Of a stretch of DNA of 64,000 nt, positions 5,029-42,200 are shown piece by piece. The DNA comes from Heloderma charlesbogerti (Eukaryota > Chordata > Lepidosauria > Squamata > Helodermatidae). Positions within the stretch are counted from its first letter, which is position 1; every line of letters starts with the position of its first letter. The stretch lies in contig JANEZZ010001873.1 of the NCBI GenBank assembly GCA_026122225.1, positions 1 to 64,000 on the forward strand, given 5' to 3'. The notes below the pieces were generated by a model. That model was not told the origin of the DNA and made no database searches. It saw only the letters and a list, made by a program, of their open reading frames with translations. The position numbers and the translations under genes were made by a program.

Positions 5029-6631
5029 TAGGGCTGTGCACAGACCCCCCCGCCTCACTTTGGATGCTGATTCGGACCTCTCAGAACAGCTCCACTTCAT
5101 TTTGGACCAATTTGGATCCAATCCACTTTGCTTTGGATTTGGATCCAAAGTGAAATTATACGTATTTGACATTTTCCCATTGACTTGCATTGGAAAACAG
5201 AAATGGACATAACTTTTTCAGTTTCCATGATAAATACATGATATTTGGGGATCTGGCAGCTGCCATGGAGATGATTCCATCTGCTAAGTATCAGACAGTT
5301 TGGCCCAGTAGTTTTTGAGGTTGGCGCAGGTAAAACTTGATTTTTTTTTACAAAAACTCTCAAAGCAAAGAGCTATAACTTTTTGCTGGTTGCACAGAAG
5401 TACATGAAATATGAGCAATAGGCAAGACCCCAAAGATGCCTCGTATTGGGCTTGCTTTGCCACACCATGTAGTATTAAGTTTAAATAATATATGGTGATG
5501 CGTGTTGTGCTTTGCCCACTGTGTTTTGAAATGTGGACTTGTGTGTAGTGCTTTGCCACACACTGTTTGCTTGACCACAACACAAGCACATGCATGCACA
5601 CACACAAGAGAAAAGGAAAAACAAATACAGAACTACCTGAAAGCAAAGACAAGGGTTGTTTTTTTTTAGGGAAAAGATACAGAATTCAACAATGGGAAGG
5701 GATACAGGAATTGAGAAGTGCAAGGTGGAGGAGGAGCCAAGAACAAGGAAAGGAAAGTACTTATTTTTCATATATTTATATATATTATTTTAAAACTAAA
5801 GGATCTAGGAAGAAAGGGAAAACTACTAAGAAATAGTTGAATTGAGAAGGGTGACGGCGGGGGGGCAAAGAACAAGGCAAGGCAGGAAGTTAAAGCACTT
5901 TTTAAACTTTTTTTTAAAATAAAGAATCTAGAGAAAGAAAGTGAAAAGTAATAAGAATGGTTGAATTGAGAAGGCCGGGGGGGGGGCAGTCAAAGAACAA
6001 GGCAAGGAAAAGAGGAAGCTAAAGTATTTTCTAAAAGTTTTTGGTTTTTTAAATAAAGACTCTAGAAAAGAAAGAAAGGGAATACATGAATTGAAAAGGG
6101 CTGGGTGGGAAAGACGAACAATGACAAAGCTACAGTACAACACACAGACACACACACAGACACACCCCAGATCTAGCCAACTAACCAACTCTAATCAGCT
6201 CTCTCGCACACAGTGAAATGAACACAGGCTGATCTCAAATACATACAGTATTCCCCCCCTCCACCACCACTGTCACTGATTGGAGATTGCTGGGTTACGT
6301 GCAGCCCTAATTTGGCAACTAGAGTTGCCATTCACCAAAGCTCACTCACTCCTCATCCTCTCCCCTCCCCTCCCCGCCTCTGTCCTCCTTCTCGCCCTCC
6401 CCCTGATCTTTCACAGGCTGATACATTTAGAGTCAGGCAGTCTGGGCTTTAGAAGGCATCAGAATAGCTCTGAATCTCCACGGCAGACTGAGGCACTTCG
6501 GCGGGGACCCACTTCGGCTTTGGACCACCTCAATGCTGGTCTGATCTGCTTTGGATCTCACTGAGGCATCCTCAAAGCAGCCCGATTTGCTTTGGTATTT
6601 GGATTCAGCACCAAAGCAATGCACAGCCCTA
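5029..6631. mobile_element. Non-autonomous hAT-type element, TAGGGCTGTGCA family
   Basis: The left end is TAGGGCTGTGCA and the right end is the inverted copy, ending TGCACAGCCCTA. Both sides are flanked by the identical 8-bp sequence GATAAAAG (5021-5028 and 6632-6639), the target-site duplication length of hAT transposons. The 1,603 bp interior has no transposase-like frame; it holds A/G-rich tracts and subterminal arms with repeated TTTGGAT/TTCGGAC-type words. Insertion was into a SINE, whose tail resumes on the far side. It would need a transposase supplied in trans. Confidence 0.85.
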
Positions 6632-7822: not shown

Positions 7823-8857
7823 TAGGGATGTATGAGCAATTTGTTTCAGTTCATTTTTGACCAGAATTTACCCAGTTCACACATGCTGGAGCCAGACAGG
7901 GCCTGAACAAAGACTGCAGTCCAGGTCTATACATTTTAGGGCTGTGTGGGGACCCCCAACCCACTCTGGAGGCTGATTCAGAGCTTCCAAATCAGCCCCA
8001 ACCTATCTTGGCCCTACTTGGAGTTGGGCTAACCTGCTTCAGCCCCCAGGTCCAAACCAAGATCCAGACAGCTGAAGTGGGCCATCCCGCCCTGCCGCAC
8101 AAGCCCTGCACCCATCCCCCACCCAGCCATGCAAGCCCCCTGCTCTCCCTTCTCTGGACCCATGGGGAACACCAGCAGCCATTGCTGTCTTGGAGGGAGT
8201 CGCCATTTTCTTTTAAAATGGCTACTTTTCTTCCATTAAGTAAATGGTGCATAGATTCCATCCACAAAGGGACCATCTATGCAGTATTACAGCCCATTTA
8301 AACCTGTAATATTGCGTAGATGTTGGGCGCTCCCCATGGGTCTAGGGAAGGAGCAGAGGGCTTGTGCAGCTGTCCAGATCAGACCAAAGCAGCCTGAAGT
8401 GCTTCAGAGTGGTCAAACCCACTTTGGGTCACTCTCAACCCACTCCAGAACTTCACCACTTCAGCCTGAATCACCCTGACCCACTTCAGGATTCGGGCCA
8501 AAGTGGTGCACAGCCCTAGTACATTTCCAAGCTTGCAATGTGATTCGAGGAACAAAATCAATGTATTCAAAACATGCATATATTTGAAATATGTGCATGA
8601 AAATGTGTACTTTGTGTACTTGGAAAAAATGCACATGAACATGCTTTAGTCAATGGGAGAAAAATGTGTACGTTTTTTTAAAATGTGCACAATTGATGCA
8701 TCCATTTGGGAACATGTGCATGAAAATATGCACAATTTTTTGTGCATAAGGGGTTGGGGAAGCACGTAATCTGATATGGACATAAGTTGGAACAGGTTTT
8801 GTGGTGGAATTCATAGAACCTTGATGAGCTCAGGTTTGTTTAATTCACACATGCCTA
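7823..8857. mobile_element. Possible older hAT-like element containing the 7937 insertion
   Basis: Left edge TAGGGATGTATGAGC and right edge CACACATGCCTA are roughly inverted. The flanks CATGTATG and CATCCAAG match at only 5 of 8 positions, so this is a weak call. The interior includes the clearer nested element 7937..8518 and a block rich in ATGTGCATGAAAATGTG words at 8580-8740. Confidence 0.35.
7937..8518. mobile_element. Non-autonomous hAT-type element, TAGGGCTGTG family
   Basis: Starts TAGGGCTGTGTGG and ends GTGCACAGCCCTA, the same ends as 5029..6631. Flanks are ATACATTT (7929-7936) and GTACATTT (8519-8526), an 8-bp duplication with one mismatch. The 582 bp interior is non-coding and has subterminal words such as TTCGGGCCAAAGTGG. 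Same family as 46451..46886 and 62611..63580. Confidence 0.8.
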
Positions 8858-18999: not shown

Positions 19000-19856
19000 T
19001 AGGGATGTACGAAACTCACCTTTTCACAGAATTTTTCATGGTGGGGGGGAGGCACTCCTTCCCTCCCCCCGGAATCCTCGATGGGGGGGAGGCGATCCGG
19101 TCCTCCCCCCCGGAATCCTGCCCAGCCAGCTCTGCTCCATGGCAGCTCTGCGGAACAGCCGGCCAGGGCTGTCCGCAGCCGGATTTCCAGCCACAGACGG
19201 GCTGCTGCGGATGCAAACGGCGGCCACCATAGCAGCCGCCATTTGCATCCAGCCAGGCTGCCGTGATAGGCTACGTAAGTATTTATGTAGCCTATCATGG
19301 CAAACCCCCCCCAAAAAAGGGTGTATGCAAATGGCAGCGGCTACAGCAGCCGCCATTTGCGTTCCCTATTTTTCGCCGTTCTAGCCTACGTAAATATTTA
19401 CATAGGCTATTAGGGCGAAAAAAAGGGGAACACAAATAGTGTAGTGGCCGCTATTTGCATTCCTTTTTTTTCCGCCATTCTAGACTACGTAAATATTTAC
19501 ATAGGCTAGAACAGCAAAAAATAGGGAACTCAAATGGTGGCCGCTGTAGCCACCGCCATTTGCGTACACAGTTTTTTTGGGGGGGGTTAGCCATGATAGG
19601 CTATGTAAATACTTACGTAGCCTATCACAGCTGCAAGGGTGCCAATGTTGGCCGCAGCAGCCCGGCCGTGGCTGGCCAGGAGACCAGCTGCCGGAGCTGC
19701 CACCACCGCCGAATCCGCCGCATCCGTCCCAGGTAAGTTCCGTCCCAGGGGGATTCTGCAGGAGGGCGGAGGGGCAGGAGGCCATTCCACCACGGATTCC
19801 AGGGAGGGGGAATCCAGCCTCACTGGAATCTGTGGCAGAATTGTCTGCCACCCCTA
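19000..19856. mobile_element. Non-autonomous hAT element with repeated internal palindromes
   Basis: Flanked by exact 8-bp duplicates CTCTAGAG (18992-18999 and 19857-19864). Ends TAGGGATGTAC and CACCCCTA are inverted. The interior holds at least four palindromes built on CTACGTAAATATTT or GATAGGCTACGT (19259-19301, 19384-19411, 19483-19508, 19596-19629), separated by repeated blocks reading GCAAATGGCGGC-type words. It is GC-rich at both sides. The ends match the 9.4 kb element at 22386 and the palindromes match the MITE at 30192, so it is probably mobilised by that transposase. Confidence 0.85.
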
Positions 19857-22377: not shown

Positions 22378-22799
22378 TTGCTGCCTAGGGATGTCAGAGA
22401 AATCCGCTCGAAAGTCAAATGGGACCGAATTCAGACACATCCGGTCTGTGGAACCTGCCCCTGGAACGGGGCGCCCCGGTGTACTTGAACCTCACGCAGA
22501 CCTTTTTTTTTTTCTCTGCCGAAAATTTTACGAAGGTATTTACGAAGGAAACTTCGCAAATCAGGATGAAAGATGGTGAAAGGGATTTTATGAAACTATT
22601 TAAAAAATATGCAGTTTTCTGCTACGACGTGGCTTTCTTTCACTGGGAGGGACGGGGTCACGAAGTGCACGTAGCCTGCCTGAGGCTGAGTCACCAACTG
22701 CACGTAGCCTCATCTTTTTTTTATTGTCTGTGTGTGAAGGTGAGTTCAGGTTCAGGTCAGGTGAGGTCAGGTGAGCGAGATCCCTCCAGGCCACCCCCC

Positions 22800-23034
22800 T
22801 ACCCCACCAGGAAGATAACGTCATTGAGGAGAGGGAACTCATCGACCATTTATCTCGCCTTCACATAGGACGGCGGTGTGTCCAGCAGCCTCAGTTGCTC
22901 CAGTCCAGACTCCAGACTAGAGACCAGAGGCGCCGCTGCTGCAGACAGAGTGTCTATCTCCAGCAGCTGCAATGAGTGTGTTTCTGTGTCCCCCTGTTCT
23001 ACGTCACTGCAGTTCAACCTTTATTACAGTGAAG
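22800..23034 (+). other. Probable non-coding first exon of the hAT transposase gene
   Basis: GC-rich segment with CAGCAGC words ending at a plausible donor (GTGAAG then GTATAC at 23035). The next acceptor, TTCTGCCCAG ending at 23553, lies just before the first transposase ATG. The 5' limit is unknown. Inference from splice signals only. Confidence 0.35.
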
Positions 23035-23066
23035 GTATACTCTTTCATATGTTTACTTTACCTGAA

Positions 23067-23330
23067 TGTGCCCCTATGCTTAGTGATTTTGGGGTGGGTT
23101 GGGGGAGCAGGGGGAACTGGGAAGGCATCCTCCAGCAGCCTTTGTTAGGCCTGCCGGGAAGGACTCCATCCTCCATCTTCCTGGGCTTTCCAGGATTAAT
23201 CCATGTGCTTTTCAACTCCATGTGCCCCTATGTACTTAGTGTTTTTGAGTGGGTTGGGGCGGGGGGAACTGGGGAGGCATCCTCCAGCAGCTTTTGTTAG
23301 GCCTGCCAGGAAGGACTCCATCCTCCAGCA
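23067..23330. repeat. Tandem duplication, period about 154 bp
   Basis: Blocks starting TGTGCCCCTATG at 23067 and 23221 share the order GGTTGGG, GGGGGAACTGG, GGCATCCTCCAGCAGC, TTTGTTAGGCCTGCC, GGAAGGACTCCATCCTCC. A third partial unit lies near 23360-23402. Located in the presumed 5' intron of the transposase gene. Confidence 0.75.
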
Positions 23331-23557
23331 TCCTGTGTGTACTGTAGGCTTGTGTTTTTCAGGCTGCATGGATGGACTACATCCTCCATCCTGGGCTTTT
23401 CAGCCTAATCTGCTGTACAATATGCCCCTATTTAGTTAGCATTGGATGGCTGTATTGGTGGGTAACTACTTCTACACTGCACTATATCTGCGACTGTAGG
23501 CTGTTCACATGATTTCAGCTTCGCCACATGCATTTATGTCTCCTTCTGCCCAGAGAC

Positions 23558-26500
23558 ATGAACATGGAGAAAAGAGGAACCTGTGGTCAATCCAGCACTC
23601 AAAAGAGGCATGGACGCCCGGCGAGAACATACACCGCTGAGGTTGCATTTCAGCTGTATTTTAAGAATGAGATGGAAGAGGAGGAAGCCCAAGGTGTGAC
23701 CAGCAGCGACAGCAGCCCCAGCACCAGTCCACCCCACACCCGTAAGCAGTGCACACCACCAATTTCCGCTACAGAAAGTGGCACAGGCACAGCCGGCCAC
23801 AACTCCAGAGGAAGAGGAAGAAAGTTCATGGATGGTGAGCGGAAGGGCAGTGTCTCCAAAGCGGATGAAAATGTTCCCAAGGAGACTCTACAGCAGCAGA
23901 ATGAAAGTCAAGATATCTAGGACATTCCAAAGCATGAATCTGGTAAGACTCTGTCATCACAGGTGCTTGTAAATATCTGGATACAAATAAATATCTTCGA
24001 ATATTTGAATAGTCCTTACATTAGCCTTCTGCAACCTGCAGCCTTCCAGATGTTTTGGGCTACAATTCCCAGCATTCTTGACCATTGGTCATGCCGGCTG
24101 GGCCTGATGGGAGTTGAAGTCTAAAACCTTTGGAGAGGACCATTTGGGGAAGGGATCTTCTTCTTCAACACGACAAAACATACATGACTGTTTTACATTC
24201 ATTCATATTCATTGCTGTGAACATATTTCATATTATTTAAATGTTACATGGTACTCCAGTACTAAAGAAAACCCCAACTCTTTAAAAGAACTGCAATACT
24301 TTCTCAAACGATACACCTTTTCGGTGGGAAAACACTTCAGTGTTTTGGTCTTGCTTTGTTTCCAAAGCCATTAATCATAGTTTGCTGTCTTGTTTGGCTT
24401 TGATCTCTTTTAACTAGAGCTGCAATGTGAATTGATTAAGCAATTACATTTCTGAGGATGGTTTTTAAAAGAGGGCCTGACTAATCAGGCACTGCTCCCG
24501 GGGGACCACAAATGCACCCCGGAAAAAGGTGGTGGGATTTGCCAAGTATGTGCTCAGGACCAGCCCTATCATTAGGTAGCAGCGAGGTGTTGGGGCACAG
24601 AACTGTGGGTGCTCCTCAGACTGCCTTGTACCTCCTCAGCCAGCTTGTTGTCCTCTGGTGTGGTGGAAGAGGCTCTCCCATTGTCACTGTTCAATTAAGA
24701 TTCAGCTATCGCTCTATGTAGGATGGAGGGGTGCCATTTTATCCTTTGCCTCAGGTCAGAAAGCAAAATGCTTTGGGCCAGCCCTGTAGGTGTTGAGTCC
24801 CATACAGTGGTATAATAGAGCTGATGCAAAGGAGCGGACCTTGCAAGGGAGCCAGATATCTCCTCCCCCATGCTTTTCAGACTTTCACCAGTGAGGACAC
24901 GTTTAGATAACTCTCGTTGAGTTTCGAAGTCTGTACAGTACATTTTTTTTGCACCTTGTGTCATGTGTTTTCGCAGTGCTAGCTAGTGCAGTAGTAGCTT
25001 ACATCTGCACCTTGTGTCATGTTGATTGATCGCAATTCCAAGCTATGTTTCATAGATTTCCACAACTACACAGTTTTATTCTCTTGGCTATTACTCATGT
25101 GTAAAAGTTGCATTTCTCATGAAACTCTGCTTCTATCTATTTTGAATCCTTACAGAGACGCCCACAACCGTCCTCCCTGCATCAGACAGCAGAAGTGGGA
25201 CAGGTGAACCAGGTCCACAGCTGCCTGCTGATAATCACCTCGTGGGCGGCAGCTCATGTGATTTTGAAAAAAAGGCCAGAGGACTTAGTGTCATCAGTGA
25301 TCCAGACAGTGAAGATGATGAGGAGCCCTTCTATATTAATGATGTCCCTGCTGAGACTGGGTCTGACTCTGTTTTCCACTTCCAGCCTTCTGGGTTCTTT
25401 GGGAGCAATCCCAAACCTCAGGAACAAACATCCCCTGCTAAGCACTGGTCAGCGCCATCAACAACACCACCAACAACACCATCCACAGATGAGCGGAAAC
25501 GTGCAGCTCCCGATGCCACCTCATCTGGAACTGATACCCTCATTCCCCAAAGAAGAAATGGTGGTGGCAGGGTGAGCACCTATGTGTGGTGCTTCTTCAA
25601 ATATGCAGAGAACGACCGCTATGTCATGCTTTGCAATATTTGTAGAAGCCGTGTACGGCTAGGAAAAGAAGGGGGCTGTGCACGAGTGGGCACGTCTGCC
25701 ATGAGGCGACACATGGAGGTGCATCATGTGCTTCTTGTGCCCAAAGATAGCAACGGGAAGCCACAACCATCCAAAAAGAGCAGTACCGCCTTCTTTGTCT
25801 CATCTTCCAAAGACCTCACGCAAAGTGGTCTGGGTGAGAAGGGCACAGAAGGCAGCTTCGCTAAGAGGCAGGCGTCAATGGAGAAATGCCTCATGCTGAC
25901 ACAGAAATTCCCCTCTGACAGCATCCAGGCACGAAGGTTGAATTAGGACCTGACAGTGCTCATTGCAAAACGTATGCTTCCCTTCCCCCTGGTGGAAGAT
26001 GAAGCCTTTGTGCGCTTCATGAAGAGATTGTGCCCTCGGTGGGATGTCCCCTCTCGTCACTACATTAGTGGCATAGCCATTCCAGCCCTGGCTTCTGAAA
26101 TCAGAAGGGTACTCCAACAGGATTTGAAATGTGCAGTTGGAGGAAGTGTACATTTAACGAGTGACACATGGACAAGTAACCAAACAAAGTCTTATCTGTG
26201 TGTCACTGGGCAATGGGTATCCATCAGTGCGAGCAGCCGACTGACTTGTAGAACAGCGACATTGGCCCTCACAATGCTCTCAGGGACACACACAGCAGAA
26301 AACATCAGCAGTAGCATCAGTGTTGTTGTTCAGTCCTGGTTGGCCCCCTTAAATCTAACAGTGGGCTGTGTAGCAACAGATAATGCCTCCAACTACCTAA
26401 AAGCAGCCCACATCGCACGGCTAAACCACATTCAATGCGTTGCGCACTGTTTGAACCTTGTGGTGCATTCCGGATTGAGCAACGCATCTCCTAAAATAGG

Positions 26501-27816
26501 CAAGCTACTTAAGGTGGCCCAATCCATTTGCACCCACTTCAGGCAGTCCTGCTCAGCAATGGAGGCAATCGGCGCCATCCAACGTAGCCATGGCCTTCCA
26601 GAACACAAATTCATTTTGGATGTGTGCACATGCTGGAACAGCACATTGCATATGCTTCAGAGACTCTGTGAGCAGAGATCAGCTATAAACGACTACATTA
26701 CTGAGAAACAACAGTAAACAACACTCCAAATTTTTTGTCACACCACATCAGTGGCTCTGGATGCAAGACCAAGAATATTTTATACATATTCGATGAATGC
26801 ACAACGCTACTGAGTGCAGACTGTGCCACACTGGGCCAAGTTCTACCTGTGCTGAAGATTATAGAGGGGGTCCCGAGAAAACGCCATGCTGAGCTTTGTG
26901 AGCGCACCGGTGCTGTAGGCAGTCAAGTCCCCAATCCTGCAGTTAGGCTTGCTGAATTCCTTCTGCAGGAGCTGGGCACCAACAAACACATCACTTTGAT
27001 GAGGAGGGACATGAAATACATTGCTGCTGCATTCCTTGAACCACGGTTCCAGGATAGCACAACAAGGGCGGTGCTGCCAAACCAGAACCCTGACTTCCAA
27101 AGTGTAAAAACCTATTTGACACAGAAAGTCATGGAGTGCTGCCAGAGAGATGTGCTGGATGAGAAGGAGCTGGGGAAGAGTGAGGCTAGTAGGACTACTA
27201 CCTCCCCTGAAGATAATATCTGCAGCAGTAGCACCATCACCAGCAGGAGGGGTGATGATGACGCCACAGCAGCTGCACCACCAACACAACATACAGACAC
27301 AGGGGCATCTTGTCGAAAGTTCTACTTGTACTCCTCAATGGCAGTGGAGCTCGGTGTAAGTGGGAGCAGGCAGGGGGAATGTGTCAAAGCAGCCAGGAAA
27401 GGATCAGTTTATGATGTGGCTATCCAGGAACTGGAAGCTTATGCCAGAGGGAGTTTCTCGGGAATGCAGAGCAGCCCAGAGAGTGATCTTCTCCTATACT
27501 GGGAGACAAAACATGGCGTTTGGCCAAATCTGACCAAAGTCGCCATTTGGCATATATCTTGCCCTCCCTCGAGTGTGTCCTCTGAAAGGCTTTTCTCCAC
27601 CACTGGCAACATTGTCACCACCCGCCAAAGCAGAATCACACCAGAACATGTCTCCACCCTTGCCTTCATACACTCCAACAGGGATGGATTCCCGAGGAGC
27701 ACCTCCCTCCACCACCACCAGCTGTCAGCAGAGTAGAGCAGTCATCAAGTGACGAGGAGGACCCCTGGGATGATGATACTGCTGCTAATGTGAGCCAGAG
27801 TTCTGAGGGACAATGA
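23558..27816 (+). pseudogene. hAT transposase with BED zinc finger (ZBED-like), damaged
   Basis: Cuts and rejoins the element ends. Exon A starts at the ATG at 23558, after acceptor TTCTGCCCAG, and runs to a GTGAGC donor at 23834. Exon B starts at 25156 after CCTTACAG; phases match. The N-terminal part is Ser/Thr/Glu-rich. A BED finger lies at about 25578-25722 (CNIC, then RRHMEVHH). The RNase H-like core shows SDTWTS (about 26160), VATDNASNYL and CVAHCLNLVVHS. The C-terminal dimerisation block has LLLYWETKHGVW and SSERLFSTTGNIVTTRQSRI, which usually carries the third acidic catalytic residue. Breaks: an in-frame TAG at 25944, frame changes near 26715 and 26770, and one near 27675 that displaces the acidic tail ending at 27816. 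Domain order and length fit a full hAT transposase. Confidence 0.9.
24019..24156. repeat. Palindromic hAT-like MITE, copy 2, in the transposase intron
   Basis: CCAGATGTTTTGGGCTACAA at the left and GAAGTCTAAAACCTTTGG at the right are inverted around CAGCATTCTTGACCATTGGT. Same family as 21028-21165, with a half copy at 57640-57720. Confidence 0.65.
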
Positions 27817-28337
27817 GGCAGAATGATATAATTGTGAGTGTGGTCACACTGAGGTGTCCCTCAGAACTTTGTCCAAACAAGCAGTCCCTGTCTGGCCTGG
27901 GCAGAGCCCAAAGCACTGGCGATATGTGGCGGAGCTTTATAATAACTCACATGCAGAGTCCAGTTGCGCTGCCCGACTGTGTGTGGTGGACTATGCAACA
28001 GTGTACATCCCTACTACACACACACAGAGTTTTCTATGCATCCCAGTGTATTTCGCTATCGACTGTATATGTGTATCTTTACTCCTCTGAATGTTAGTAT
28101 GATTCTGATTCCCCAAATGTATGTATAGTTCTAATTCTCTTGATGTGTGCTTTTAATTCATTTTAAACTCTTTCATAAATCAAGGAATTGCTTTCAAAGA
28201 CCTTGTTGTGGTCTCTCTCTGGACTCCCTCAGCTTTTGGGTTTTCCTAAGCACCGAGAGTTCTATGTGAAACGATCCCTCTGGTATGCGTCCAGTTTACA
28301 TGTATGTGATATGCACCTCCACATAAAACAAAGCATA

Positions 28338-28465
28338 CTTCATAGAATCATAGGGTTGGAAGGGGCCTACAAGGCCATCTAGTCCAACCCCCTGCTCAAT
28401 GCAGGAATCCAAGTCAGAGCATCCCTGACAGATGGCTGTCCAGCCTCGTCTTGAATGCATTCATT
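28338..28465 (-). mobile_element. CR1 LINE 3' end fragment
   Basis: Plus-strand TCATAGAATCATAGGGTTGG and AAGGGGCCTACAAGGCCATC are the reverse complement of a CR1 3' end with its short terminal repeats. It is nearly identical to the 3' end of the long CR1 at 40422. It lies between the two convergent genes of the hAT element, so it inserted later. Confidence 0.85.
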
Positions 28466-28986
28466 CATAACATCAGGGATGCTGACTGACCATCTCCCTA
28501 TGAGGGAAGCTTACAGCAGCTGGGCTTGTTTGGCTGGGAAAGCATTCTTGTTGCAGTTAACAGTAAGCAAACACAGAGATCATTGTGTACAATGATCTAG
28601 ATTTAAAAAATTATATCTGTGGACTTGAACGAAGGAATTGTTACCTTTTTTTTAGAAAGAACTTTATATACAAACAGAACAGGTCAAAACAAAACACAGA
28701 AACAATTGTAACGTTGGGCTGGGCACTGGCTGGCTGCAGGCCTCAGTTCGTAGGAGGATGCAGTTCCCGCTCCATGGCCTCCACCCTTCTTTGAAGGTCA
28801 TCACCTGTGTGTAGAAAGAGAAGAATAAAGCACAATGGTAATATGCATCTTGCAGGCAGAGTTGTCAGCTCAGGTGCCATTCTGTAGTACTGCTTACATG
28901 TCCTGCTGAGCCTCTGGACGTCTCTCATCAGATGCATCAGGAGCACAAGAGGAGGGGCTTCTTCTGTGGAAGAAGGGTGGCCTTCC

Positions 28987-29107
28987 TCCACAGATGCTGC
29001 TCCTCTTGCTGCTGGCTCTTCGATCTCCTCCTCTTCCTCTTCCTCTTCCACCTCCTCTTCTTCCTCTTCCTCCACCTCCTCCTCCTCCTCTCTCCTCTCC
29101 CTCTCCG
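28987..29107 (-). repeat. Glu-codon (GAG/GAA) low-complexity tract in exon 2
   Basis: Imperfect CTC/TTC triplets on + encode the acidic stretch of the Myb/SANT protein on -. It produces Leu/Ser-rich false frames on the opposite strand. Confidence 0.8.
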
Positions 29108-29423
29108 CGGCCCTCAGTGCCTCCTCCGCCAGCAAGGCACAATGCGCAGCTGTGGGATGTCACAGTAACAGAATGAATGCATTTATATATGTGGTGAGTG
29201 AACAAAACCACAGTCATTGATTGATCTATCTATCACCATCCCCACTACCATAAGAACCACTGATTCTGTCCTCCCACCACAAGGTCTAATGATGAGGGGA
29301 TAATTAGGGAGGCAGATTATACAGTACTGACAGTTTTGGTGTGATGGGGACTGTTGAACTTCTGTAAACATGCACAGGGTTGCACTTCTAGTCACCCCAT
29401 TTCTACATTTGCAATGCCATGGT

Positions 29424-29640
29424 ATTTATTTATTCTATTGATGCATTGCATAAATGCCACCTTTTTTCCTAGCGCAAGGAACCCAAGGTGGCTCACATTA
29501 GCCTCTTCCTCTCCATTTAACGCTCACAACAACGACACTGAGGTAGGCTGGGGCTTTCTGACTGGGCCAAAGTCAGCCAGCAAGCTTCCATGGCTGAGTG
29601 GACTATACCCAGATCTCCAGGCTCTCAGATGAACACTTGC
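29424..29640 (-). mobile_element. tRNA-derived SINE in the Myb gene intron
   Basis: Reverse orientation copy: GCAAGGAACCCAAGGTGGCT, then CGCTCACAACAACGACACTG, AGTCAGCCAGCAAGCTTCCA and TGGCTGAGTGG. The body matches the split SINE at 4874/6632. It lies between exon 1 and exon 2, on the same strand as the gene. Confidence 0.6.
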
Positions 29641-30191
29641 TCATGAGTTGACTTGAGTGCCAATGTCTTGGTAGAAAGGTGGGGTGGGTGGGGTGCAAAA
29701 ATTCAGCAATCACTACATGAAGAAGGATGACGTGCACACACTGAGAGGCTGGTCCTGTTGCTGCTGGGCTGGTGCCAGTCCCCCTGTGTGCACTGTGCAG
29801 AGACCGGCAGCAGCAGCATTTCCCTGGAAATGGACAGCGTGTCAGTGTGTAATATGAGTTGTAGCCAGGCCCGCATAATCCTATGCATGTGGTTGTACAG
29901 GAAAAAGCAATGCAGCAGTTCCCAGCATCCCTTCAACCAGCCAAAGTGGCCAGAAGATGATGGAACCTTTTTCTGTCCAAGTTCAACAAGCATAGGATTG
30001 CAGGCTAAATGTCAGGATTTGTTTGTTTCCACATGAGACCACAAAGAGATAGCTTCATTTTTGGTACACATCCTTGTCTTCATATTTAGTTAAGCTTGAT
30101 GATGGGATGGGATAACTATAACTTACCAGGCATATACCTCTGCGAAAATGGGGGCTGGCCTGCTTTGACCCACACTCTGTGGATGTGCCAT

Positions 30192-30627
30192 TAGGGATGG
30201 GGGAGAATTTCTCCCCGAAACTTCGGGGGGCCGAGTGCCAATGCATTCGGTCCTCCAAAGGTTGTTCGGGGAGAAATTCTCCGCCCCCCGCCCCCCGCCC
30301 CCCGCCCCCCCCCCGGGATGGGACTTACCTTTCACGAATGTCCCTCCCAGCGGCGGGTCCCAGCGGCGGTTCAGCAGGTCTTCGTCAGGGGCGGGGGCGG
30401 CAGCCGGTCTTTCGACCGGCTGCCGCCGCCGCCATTACAAGAAAAGTAAAAAAACAAAAAACGCCCCTGTGATAGGCTACATAACGAGTAACGTGGCCTA
30501 TCATGGCTAGATTTGCAAAGTCAGCCGTGATAGGCTACGTTAATCGTCACGTAGCCTATCACGGGTGACTTTAAAAAAAAAAAAAAAAGCACGTACGGCT
30601 AATGGCAGCCCCCATAGGGCATCCCTA
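30192..30627. mobile_element. Nested non-autonomous hAT MITE inside Myb/SANT exon 1
   Basis: Ends TAGGGATGG and GCATCCCTA. Flanks GTGCCATT and GTGCCAGT match at 7 of 8 positions. Contains a C/G-rich tract at 30283-30316 and two palindromes: GATAGGCTACATAACG with GTGGCCTATC at 30471-30502, and GATAGGCTACGTTAATCG with GTAGCCTATC at 30529-30560. These ends and palindromes match the 857 bp element at 19000. It interrupts the coding exon of the host transposon's second gene. Confidence 0.85.
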
Positions 30628-30924
30628 GTGCCAGTAGTAGGCGGGGGGGTTGGACAGCGGTGCCCTCCTCTCAGCAGCAGCAATCCCCTCTCTGATGAAA
30701 GACAGCTTTAGTGCCTTCCATTTGGACCTCAATTGTCCAATTGTGCAATGGTGGCCCGCTCGCTCAATCCTCCTCTTTATCTGGGCCCAATAAAGTTCAT
30801 TGTGGCAGGAGCAGCTGCCAAACAGCACTGCCACCGCCTCGCTGCTCTTAATGTTGATGAGGAGGGCCTTGGTCTCCTCATGGTCCCACCTCCTGCCATG
30901 CACTGGTGCAGCCATTTTAGAGCA

Positions 30925-31080
30925 GCCACACTACTACTACACACAAACACACACACACACCAAGACAGCCACGCACAACCACCACTTAACTATACACACA
31001 CACAGACCAAACGGGACAAAAACACCACAGTGCACAACTACACACACACACACCAGACAAAACCACCACAATGCACAAAC
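30925..31080. repeat. CA-rich imperfect repeat upstream of the Myb/SANT gene
   Basis: Interrupted ACACAC and CACCACAA runs just 5' of the Myb/SANT start codon. Could form part of its promoter, but there is no clear TATA box. Confidence 0.6.
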
Positions 31081-31404
31081 AACACTGATACAAGGAAATC
31101 CACTAAGCACCATCACTAACACACCACCACCACACAACAGAACTCCACCCACAAATCACCATGCAAGCGCAAATGCAGACGACATTCAGGAAGTTAGCAG
31201 GAAGTTGACGACAGATTTTGTGGAAGTGGAGCTGCAGCCCCGTTTTTTTTATTATTTGTGAGGCGGTTAGGTTAACAAGACCAGTAAACGCGAGGATCAT
31301 CAAGCACAAATACACAGAAATTAATAAAATCACAGTCCCTGTCCCTGTCCGAGAAAACAAGACAGCGGGGGAGCACACAGAGGGCAGGAAACATTTCGGG
31401 CAGC

Positions 31405-31700
31405 AACGAAAAAAATACGTAAATAATTACAAAAATAGTGGGAAAGTTCTGGCCAAGGCAATCCCAACAATGGCGAGAGTGTGGCGGAAGCTACGGGGGG
31501 ATTCCCCCCTAGGGAGTAAATACGTAAGCAATCACAACAAGGGAGAGTGCAGCGGAAGGTACATAGGGTCAATTCCAGCTGACGGAAACTACGTAAATAT
31601 TTGCGACGAATAGTCTTTCGCAGAATGGCGGAACGGGACGGGCGGCTGTTGGGCGCGGAGGATTTTTCGACGTTTGCTGCGATTTTATTTACGTAACTTT
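31405..31700. promoter_or_regulatory. Subterminal motif array, probable transposase binding region
   Basis: Four related motifs in about 290 bp: ATACGTAAATAATTAC (31417), AATACGTAAGCAATCAC (31519), CTACGTAAATATTTGCG (31589) and TTTATTTACGTAAC (31684). CTACGTAAATATTT also occurs in the 857 bp element at 19386 and 19485. hAT transposases generally recognise repeated short subterminal motifs. The left end has the looser TTTTACGAAGGTATTTACG at 22537. Confidence 0.55.
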
Positions 31701-31822
31701 CAAGGCGGGGGGAAAAAAACAGTATTTTGGGGGTTTGCGGGCAGCGGGACGGAACAGAGGATGCCAACTGCGGAAGTCAAGTGGAATGGTATGAGCACAA
31801 TTCGTACATCCCTATTGCTGCC

Positions 31823-40406: not shown

Positions 40407-40506
40407 CCTTTTATTGACTATGAATCATAGAATCATAGAATAGTAGGGTTGGAAGGGGCCTACAAGGCCATCGAGTCCAACCCCCTGCTCAATGCAGGAA
40501 TCCAAG

Positions 40507-42200
40507 TCAGAGCATCCCTGACAGATGGCTGTCCAGCCTCGTCTTGAATGCCTCCAGTGTGAGAGAGAACACCACCTCCGTAGGTAATTGGTTCCATTGT
40601 TGTATTGCTCTAACAGTCAGGAAATTTTTCCTGATGTTCAGCCGGAATCTGGCTTCCTGTAACTTGAGCCCATTATTCCGTGTCCTGCACTCTGGGATGA
40701 TTAAGAAGAGATCTTGGCTTCTTCTCTGTGACAACCTTTCAAGTACTTGAAGAGTGCTATCATATCTCCCCTCAGTCTTCTCTTCTCAAGGCTAAACATG
40801 CCCAGTTCTTTCAGTCTCTCTTCATAGGGCTTTGTTTCCAGTTCTCTGATCATCTTTGTTGCCCTCCTCTGAACCCTCTCCATTTTGTCTGCATCCTTCT
40901 TAAAGTGTGGTGCCCAGAACTGGACACAGTACTCCAGATGAGGCCTAACCAGTGCTGAGTAGAGGGGAACTGGTACTTCCTCAGATTTGGAAGCTATGCT
41001 TCTATTAATGCAGCCCAAAAGAGCATTTGCCTTTTTTGCAGCCACATCACATTGTTGGCTCATATTCAGCTTGTGATCGACAACAATTCCAAGATCTTTC
41101 TCGCTTCTAGTGTGGTTGAGCCACGTATCCCCCATCCTGTAACTGTGCATTTGGTTTCCTTTTCCTAGGTGCAGAACGTGGCATTTATCCCTATTAAATA
41201 TCATTCTGTTGTTTTCTGCCCAGCGCTCCAGTCTATCCAGATCACTTTGAATTTTGTTTCTGTCTTCCAAAGTATTAGCTATCCTGCCCAATTTGGTGTC
41301 ATCTGCAAATCTGATCAGCATTCCCTGCACCTCCTCCTCCAAGTCATTAATAAAAATGTTGAAGAGCACTGGGCCCAGAACTGAGCCCTGTGGTACCCCA
41401 CTCGTTACCTCTCCCCAGTTTGAGAAGGTCCCATTGAGAAGCACTCTTTGAGTCCGATTCTGTAGCCAACTGTGGATCCACCAGATTGTTGTTTCATCTA
41501 GCCTACTTTGAGCTAGTTTGCTCATCAGGATATCATGGGGCACTTTGTCAAAAGCTTTGCTGAAGTTGAGGTATATGATGTCTACAGCATTCCCACGGTC
41601 CACAAGGGAGGTGACTTGATCAAAAAATGAGATCAGATTTGTCTGGCAGGACTTGTTTTTGACAAATCCATGTTGGCTTCGAGTAATCATGGCATTGTTT
41701 TCAAGGTGCTTCCAGATGGATTGCTTTATCATCTGCTCCAGAATTTTCCCTGGGATTGATGTCAGACTGACTGGTCTGTAGTTCCCAGGTTCCTCCTTTT
41801 TACCCTTTTTGAAGATAGGGACAACATTAGCCCTCCTCCAGTCATCTGGCACTTCCCCCGTCCTCCATGATTTCTCAAAGAGACTAGACAGCGGTTCTGA
41901 GAGTTCTTCTGCCAGTTCCTTTATTACTCTAGATTGCAGTTCATCTGGCCCTGGAGATTTGAACTCATTCAAAGTAATTCGGTGTTCCTTGACCATATGC
42001 CTATCGATCTCAAGCTGCAATCCTGCCCCTTCAGCCTGTACTTCGCCTTTGCCAGGGGGGTCATAGACCCTCTTTTGGGAGAAGACTGAGACAAAGTAGG
42101 AATTGAGGACCTCTGCCTTTTCTTTGTCATCTGTTATCATTTTGCCATCCTTATTTAATAGCTGAACAACCATTTCTTTCCTCTGTCTTTTACTATGCAT
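40507..42200 (-). pseudogene. CR1 reverse transcriptase
   Basis: A 499-codon open frame (42200-40701) plus a C-terminal tail in another frame (40734-40507). Blocks in order: ITDDKEKAEVLNSYFVSVF; VVPIFKKGKKEEPGNYRPVS (RT motif 1); ITRSQHGFVKNKSCQTNL; IIYLNFSKAFDKVPHDIL (motif A, with the usual Asp replaced by Asn in DFSKAF); TSGVPQGSVLGPVLFNIFIND (motif B region); IRFADDTKLGRI (catalytic FADD); LGIVVDHKLNMSQQCD; RPHLEYCVQFWAPHFKKD. The tail reads RFRLNIRKNFLTVRAIQQWNQ. The long intact frame suggests recent activity, but the motif A change (YLN for YLD) and the two frame breaks would abolish it. The first part of the linker to the endonuclease, at 42200-42397, is also frameshifted. Confidence 0.92.

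Follow-up and report, generated by a model that had tools for sequence, protein, structure and literature searches.

In the available parts of two published accounts, PIF/Harbinger, Pangu, NuwaI and NuwaII transposons have two genes, one for a transposase and one for a Myb/SANT DNA-binding protein (PMC4482050, PMC9179366). For PIF/Harbinger, the available portion of the second account states that the Myb-like protein binds the transposon ends and, jointly with the transposase, allows import into the nucleus (PMC9179366). Here, we describe a transposon with a similar pair of genes in a 64,000-nucleotide stretch of the Heloderma charlesbogerti genome (contig JANEZZ010001873.1, positions 1 to 64,000; hereafter, the window). 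This element is a hAT transposon. The hAT superfamily includes Ac, Tol2 and hobo, and hAT transposases are both tools for gene transfer and a main source of domesticated genes. To our knowledge, the classic members carry a single gene; the family described here adds a Myb/SANT gene. Both genes have moved together, as one transposing unit, into several loci.

The insertion occupies positions 22386–31814 of the window (9,429 bp). An exact 8-bp target-site duplication, TTGCTGCC, is found at 22378–22385 and 31815–31822. Both copies adjoin exact TAGGGATGT / ACATCCCTA ends. These 9-bp terminal inverted repeats (TIRs), TAGGGATGT, are at 22386–22394 and 31806–31814. The initial annotation proposed that one exact duplication and one pair of ends enclose both genes, and this was confirmed with coordinates and ends exact. 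Exact ends no more than 12 kb apart form three pairs in the window, and only the 22386–31814 pair has an 8/8 duplication. When the flank comparison was shifted to 300 other offsets, no match was obtained among the three pairs. The left end (22386–22900, + strand) consists of the TIR and a subterminal region, with the outermost 300 bp CpG-rich. The right end (31315–31814, − strand) is CpG-rich and combines the TIR with subterminal repeats: a repeated TTCCGCCACA-type unit and TACGTAA, of which the right 500 bp contain four copies where 0.06 are expected. The similarity between left and right ends was matched by none of 60 shuffles, and other pieces of the window score equally high.

Between these ends are two convergent genes. 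The first, on the + strand, encodes the transposase. Exon 1 (23558–23942) is followed by a donor GT at 23943. Exon 2 (25156–27816) encodes a BED finger (positions ~25584–25727) and a hAT dimerisation domain (positions ~27434–27679). In Pfam, these correspond to zf-BED (PF02892; 22.5 bits, cut-off 20.6) and Dimer_Tnp_hAT (PF05699; expectation value (E) 3.4e-15, 56 bits, cut-off 21.4). A DUF659 match was below the cut-off. Across six chosen reading frames only, Pfam revealed no Harbinger DDE transposase domain. Candidate D, D and E residues, which we take to be those of an RNase H-like motif, were picked out by eye only. Searches of viral contigs and of genome contigs with a piece of the transposase gave no match. 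Upstream, in the 5′ region of the gene (23066–23335), there is a repeat of ~130–150 bp, and its copy number varies among copies of the element.

The second gene, on the − strand, encodes the Myb/SANT protein. Its three-exon frame of 219 residues begins with an ATG at 30915, ~0.9 kb from the right end, and is read toward the transposase gene. The only Pfam match above cut-off is Myb_DNA-bind_4 (PF13837; 33 bits, cut-off 27). This domain and the ATG are in the first part of exon 1 (30628–30915), and the second part (30127–30184) extends to a donor GT. Exon 2 (28898–29149) encodes an acidic region. Exon 3 (28743–28804) encodes a tail that is coiled-coil-like by eye only, and ends with the stop codon. 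The frame has no small lesion and is interrupted only in exon 1, by a 437-bp miniature inverted-repeat transposable element (MITE) of the hAT type (30191–30627; flanks alike at 7/8 bases). In a search of a protein collection for Myb relatives, restricted to proteins of similar length, none of 4483 candidates was found at E 0.001. With residues 1–125 alone, none of 54 candidates was found at E 10. No match was detected for the Myb protein in viral contigs, or for the exon 1 frame among solved structures at E 1. Myb_DNA-bind_4 is itself expanded in this genome. We scored 150 of 837 candidates and all 150 exceeded the Pfam cut-off. One example is at C644:346613–348325, and a single open frame of 718 residues on C644 has at least four such domains.

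Copies of the element were sought in the window's own genome alone (2.30 Gb, 3246 contigs). Only the best 40 candidates per query were scored, and these first-look candidates are not copy counts: best 40 of 729 for the left end (84–100% identity), of 1100 for the right end (86–100% identity), of 370 for Myb exon 1 and of 426 for a piece of the transposase gene. We tallied, among the best 40 each, those on the same strand and in the expected order within 16 kb, the window included. At least 19/40 paired left end with Myb, and at least 14/40 paired the two ends. For transposase, the values were at least 7/40 with the left end, at least 8/40 with Myb and at least 11/40 with the right end. Myb and right end were paired in at least 16/40. 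Six controls with the wrong strand or order all gave 0.

Twenty other copies were read, from 18 stretches of ~10 kb and then 19 more stretches, mostly extensions. The first 18 were picked where the left-end and Myb lists coincided, a choice that favours copies with both features. The copies were colinear with the window; aligned pieces of at least 250 bp outside short repeats and the MITE are ~79–98% identical. Most of both genes is held by 12/20 copies (single pieces are partly missing in C813, C932, C1723 and C1784). Both ends were found in 13/20, and the flanking duplication is 8/8 in nine of these and 7/8 in two. For the nine copies that have both genes and both ends, window excluded, the duplication is 8/8 in six, 7/8 in two and fails in one. 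The initial annotation had held that the two-gene element would be real if several loci had both genes between the same ends with their own 8-bp duplications. Such copies, with different duplications, are present in this genome.

The right ends provide a less biased census. Sixteen of the best 40, the window among them, have a listed match to Myb exon 1 no more than 1.7 kb inside. For the remaining 24, ~1.3 kb was read at 20, and in 12 of these the main part of exon 1 is at least 90% present. Myb exon 1 is therefore near 28 of the 36 right ends examined (window included); four more were unread. The right-end matches C523 and C524, of which C524 alone was read, have near-identical coordinates and are possibly a single locus that was assembled twice.

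Comparison with other copies also clarified the state of each gene in the window. The two halves of Myb exon 1 abut, and the MITE is absent, in 18/18 other long copies and in 11/11 right-end stretches with both halves. Hence, the MITE is a later insertion. The three-exon Myb/SANT gene originally proposed on the − strand was borne out, except that the gap within exon 1 is this insertion and not an intron. The Myb frame of other copies was read in the window's register with insertions and deletions (indels) masked. At least 85% of codons were readable in 16 copies; 11 have no stop and five have one stop. All four splice dinucleotides are kept in 15/16. For the transposase, the predicted BED-finger and hAT domains were found, but the gene in the window is broken by stops (23918, in exon 1; 25944; 26715) and by frame changes (near 26715–26773 and near 27681). 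In the same register, the three stops occur in 0/16, 0/12 and 0/11 of the other copies that cover each position. At the two frame-change sites, the length in most of 10 compared copies is not that of the window. More than 860 transposase codons were read in 12 other copies, each of which has one to six stops in the window's register. The donor GT of the transposase intron is present in 13/17 copies covering it and the acceptor AG in 15/15 (window included).

The two genes descend together. We built trees of the transposase half and the Myb half for 13 copies, the window included. Four of 10 splits are common to both (permutation P = 0.0014), so the Myb phylogeny tracks that of the transposase, a test set out at the start. 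The distance matrices agree in the same way (Mantel r = 0.76, P = 0.001; after double-centring, r = 0.63, P = 0.0002). Mean pairwise divergence among copies is 3.5–3.7% in introns, and the copies form a fairly young, star-like burst.

The element in the window thus belongs to a family of two-gene hAT transposons, of which it is a single copy. We consider it rather likely that its Myb protein is made by the element as a DNA-binding partner of the transposase. The transposase would cut at the TAGGGATGT ends. The Myb/SANT protein, as a dedicated partner, may bind the CpG-rich subterminal repeats of the TACGTAA and TTCCGCCACA types. By analogy with what is reported of the PIF/Harbinger Myb-like protein, it may then recruit the transposase, import it or regulate it. 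A reading that overlaps with this one is that the Myb protein represses or times the transposase and does not help cutting. Its only Pfam match above cut-off being a DNA-binding domain, and the CpG-rich subterminal repeats being plausible binding sites, both suit such a regulator. Activator and repressor are indistinguishable from the present data, and we regard a purely regulatory role as unlikely.

A second stretch resembling a right end lies inside the element (27890–28013, − strand), ~200 bp past the transposase stop. It comprises a TAGGGATGTAC end (28003–28013) and 46 bp resembling a subterminal repeat of the true right end. The TAGGGATGTAC end was recovered in 0/300 shuffles, with a pattern chosen after the fact. 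At this position, 10/13 other copies read TAGGGATGTACG, in which 12 bp are like the true right end. The 46-bp likeness to the true right end scores 22, against a maximum of 16 in 1000 shuffles, and ranks only second among 1262 real 200-bp pieces, the top piece being T-rich. The stretch has neither the ACGTA motifs nor the CpG richness of the true ends. In the 14 copies showing it, the flank is GTGTGTAG in 13 and ATGTGTAG in one. We also looked genome-wide for a one-gene precursor ending at 28013. The exact 18-mer at this position is followed by C at 161 places and by another base at six, a ratio close to that expected from point mutation, and no such precursor was found.

The internal end is possibly the remnant of an earlier right end, and the entry of the Myb gene would then be explained. 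In outline, a one-gene hAT ending near 28013 might have switched to another, more distant right end, and so gained the Myb gene. Two further readings concern the Myb gene. In one, a hAT lineage would have independently reached a two-component design like that of PIF/Harbinger. The element's Myb/SANT protein, acquired through a second right end beyond the Myb gene with a trace of the old end at 28013, would be needed for end recognition or control it. We put this forward tentatively, as possible though not probable. In the other, the Myb protein is a passenger. A hAT element would have captured a neighbouring Myb/SANT gene, of host or Harbinger origin, for example by way of another hAT right end lying downstream. 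Since then, the gene would have hitchhiked without aiding transposition. The right-end-like stretch at 27890–28013 and the large Myb_DNA-bind_4 expansion in the genome fit this account, as does a star-like burst in which shared and private substitutions are uninformative on selection. There is a precedent in the TET/JBP genes of fungal hAT7 elements, for which transmission is described as frequent but passive in the available part of the report (PMC12730594). However, the Myb frame and splice sites were seemingly intact in the founder of the burst (11/16 copies with no stop, 15/16 with all splice dinucleotides). The gene also starts ~0.9 kb from the right end and is directed at the transposase, the arrangement that a gene of the element should have, and exon 1 is retained at 28/36 right ends examined. 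On balance, a passenger seems somewhat unlikely.

Alternatively, a Myb-only transposon of the Harbinger or another type could have inserted once into the hAT element, with the joint unit amplified afterwards. The initial annotation had named a TTA/TWA duplication and Harbinger ends around the Myb gene as evidence against a two-gene hAT. We scanned the surroundings of the gene for Harbinger, TA, TTAA, 8-bp and 9-bp flank types; no such boundary stands out and a Harbinger boundary is unsupported. The scan returned two weak pairs with other 3-bp flanks and one weak TTA pair. The latter, an 11/14 inverted-repeat pair at 28614–31320, does enclose the Myb gene. Nevertheless, a pair of this quality turned up by chance in 1.75% of 400 shuffles, and 7.8% of 398 window stretches of the same shape also contain one, with 18 settings uncorrected. 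The repeat ends have no initial G. Moreover, an empty site is present in none of 20 copies; the left junction reads through in 14/20 and the right junction in 18/20. A 3-bp TWA duplication of the PIF/Harbinger kind is also absent, the duplication of the element being 8 bp and the inner TTA pair weak. We judge a nested insertion to be very improbable.

Several observations weigh against a partner role for the Myb protein, or against an intact two-gene unit. The duplication fails in 2/13 two-ended copies (C2018 and C107). No complete Myb exon 1 was found in the stretch read at 8/36 right ends. In those eight cases exon 1 is cut by a deletion or a MITE, or lies beyond the stretch read; Myb-less copies, which had been anticipated as a refutation of the two-gene element, were not seen, and the incomplete right ends trace to deletions, MITEs and short stretches. 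An insertion of 1 or 4 nucleotides is present in Myb exon 1 near 30646–30650 in 4/16 copies, in two more of the 16 the number of deleted columns is not divisible by three, and in one the Myb ATG is not readable. Shared substitutions show no synonymous excess over private ones (Fisher P 0.74 and 0.76 for the two genes). The ratio of non-synonymous to synonymous change (dN/dS) for shared changes, away from CpG, is 1.07 for Myb and 1.20 for transposase. With all sites included, the shared values (Myb 0.72, transposase 0.78) are not different from those of private changes and fall in the range covered by non-coding controls. Hence, selection within the burst is not demonstrated by these copies; with a star-shaped phylogeny, shared changes are too few to test for it. 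Indels in multiples of three account for 34/45 in Myb exons, 29/63 in Myb introns, 22/63 in transposase exons and 5/45 in the transposase intron. The E-rich repeats of exon 2 could yield in-frame length changes in Myb without selection; triplet slippage is likely in this exon, which weakens the bias. Private changes in Myb exon 1 have a value of 0.50, compared with 0.55 to 1.10 for non-coding controls (all sites), and we do not rely on this difference. No one-gene ancestor was found, because the same base follows 161/167 exact matches to the internal end genome-wide. Finally, the function of Myb/SANT second genes is called still unknown in the available part of one account (PMC4482050). In favour of the two-gene reading with a Myb partner, we count that the joined coding sequence, when shuffled, was open in 0/2000 trials.

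Other repeats were noted in the window. Looser settings for the ends add two hAT-like pairs with perfect duplications, at 5029–6631 and 19000–19856; at the loosest setting, ~1 chance pair with no more than one duplication mismatch is expected in the window. The first is a hAT-like element with an 8/8 duplication, GATAAAAG, and TAGGGCTGTGCA ends with one mismatch per end. At 7937–8518 there is a shorter element, whose ends are similar and whose duplication is 7/8. The element at 19000–19856 is a foldback hAT-like MITE with an 8/8 duplication, CTCTAGAG, and two mismatches at one end. It has TACGTAAATATTT repeats in common with the right end of the two-gene element. Separately, 119 bp at 28340–28458 are 97.5% identical to 40433–40551 and are probably a young interspersed repeat.

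A hAT family with a separate Myb/SANT gene accompanying the transposase in many copies would suggest that a pairing of the Harbinger kind, between an enzyme and a DNA-binding partner, evolved in another superfamily. The role of a Myb partner for transposons would become testable in a second, unrelated system. The two-gene hAT may also be a source of the Myb/SANT genes spread through such genomes. A literature search by title and start of abstract, which left Repbase and most subscription papers uncovered, found no hAT element with a Myb/SANT gene among the papers listed. Resting on this limited search, the two-gene hAT would be a new transposon architecture.

The nearest relatives of the transposase, of four found, are the gecko proteins P0001 (zinc finger BED domain-containing protein 4-like) and P0002, with 39% identity across 82% of the part used as query. 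These are annotated at 1206 and 1347 residues, respectively, and have extra domains; from the search made here, they are not known to have a Myb partner. In P0002 these include PF02023 and PF01352, which we take to be SCAN and KRAB. The element resembles the hAT superfamily in its 8-bp duplications, short TIRs with subterminal repeats, BED finger and C-terminal hAT dimerisation domain. The hAT7 elements of rust fungi, in the available part of their description, are likewise of hAT type with a second gene between the ends (PMC12730594). They differ in their 7-bp duplications, their fungal hosts and the nature of the second gene, which encodes a dioxygenase (TET/JBP) and not a DNA-binding protein (PMC12730594). 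With PIF/Harbinger, the element shares a second gene with a Myb/SANT domain. Trees of Myb and transposase are congruent in fish Harbingers, according to the available part of one study (PMC9179366), as they are here. In contrast, the DDE transposase of PIF/Harbinger elements is of the PHIS type and their duplications are mostly 3 bp, whereas the two-gene hAT has a BED/hAT transposase and 8-bp duplications.

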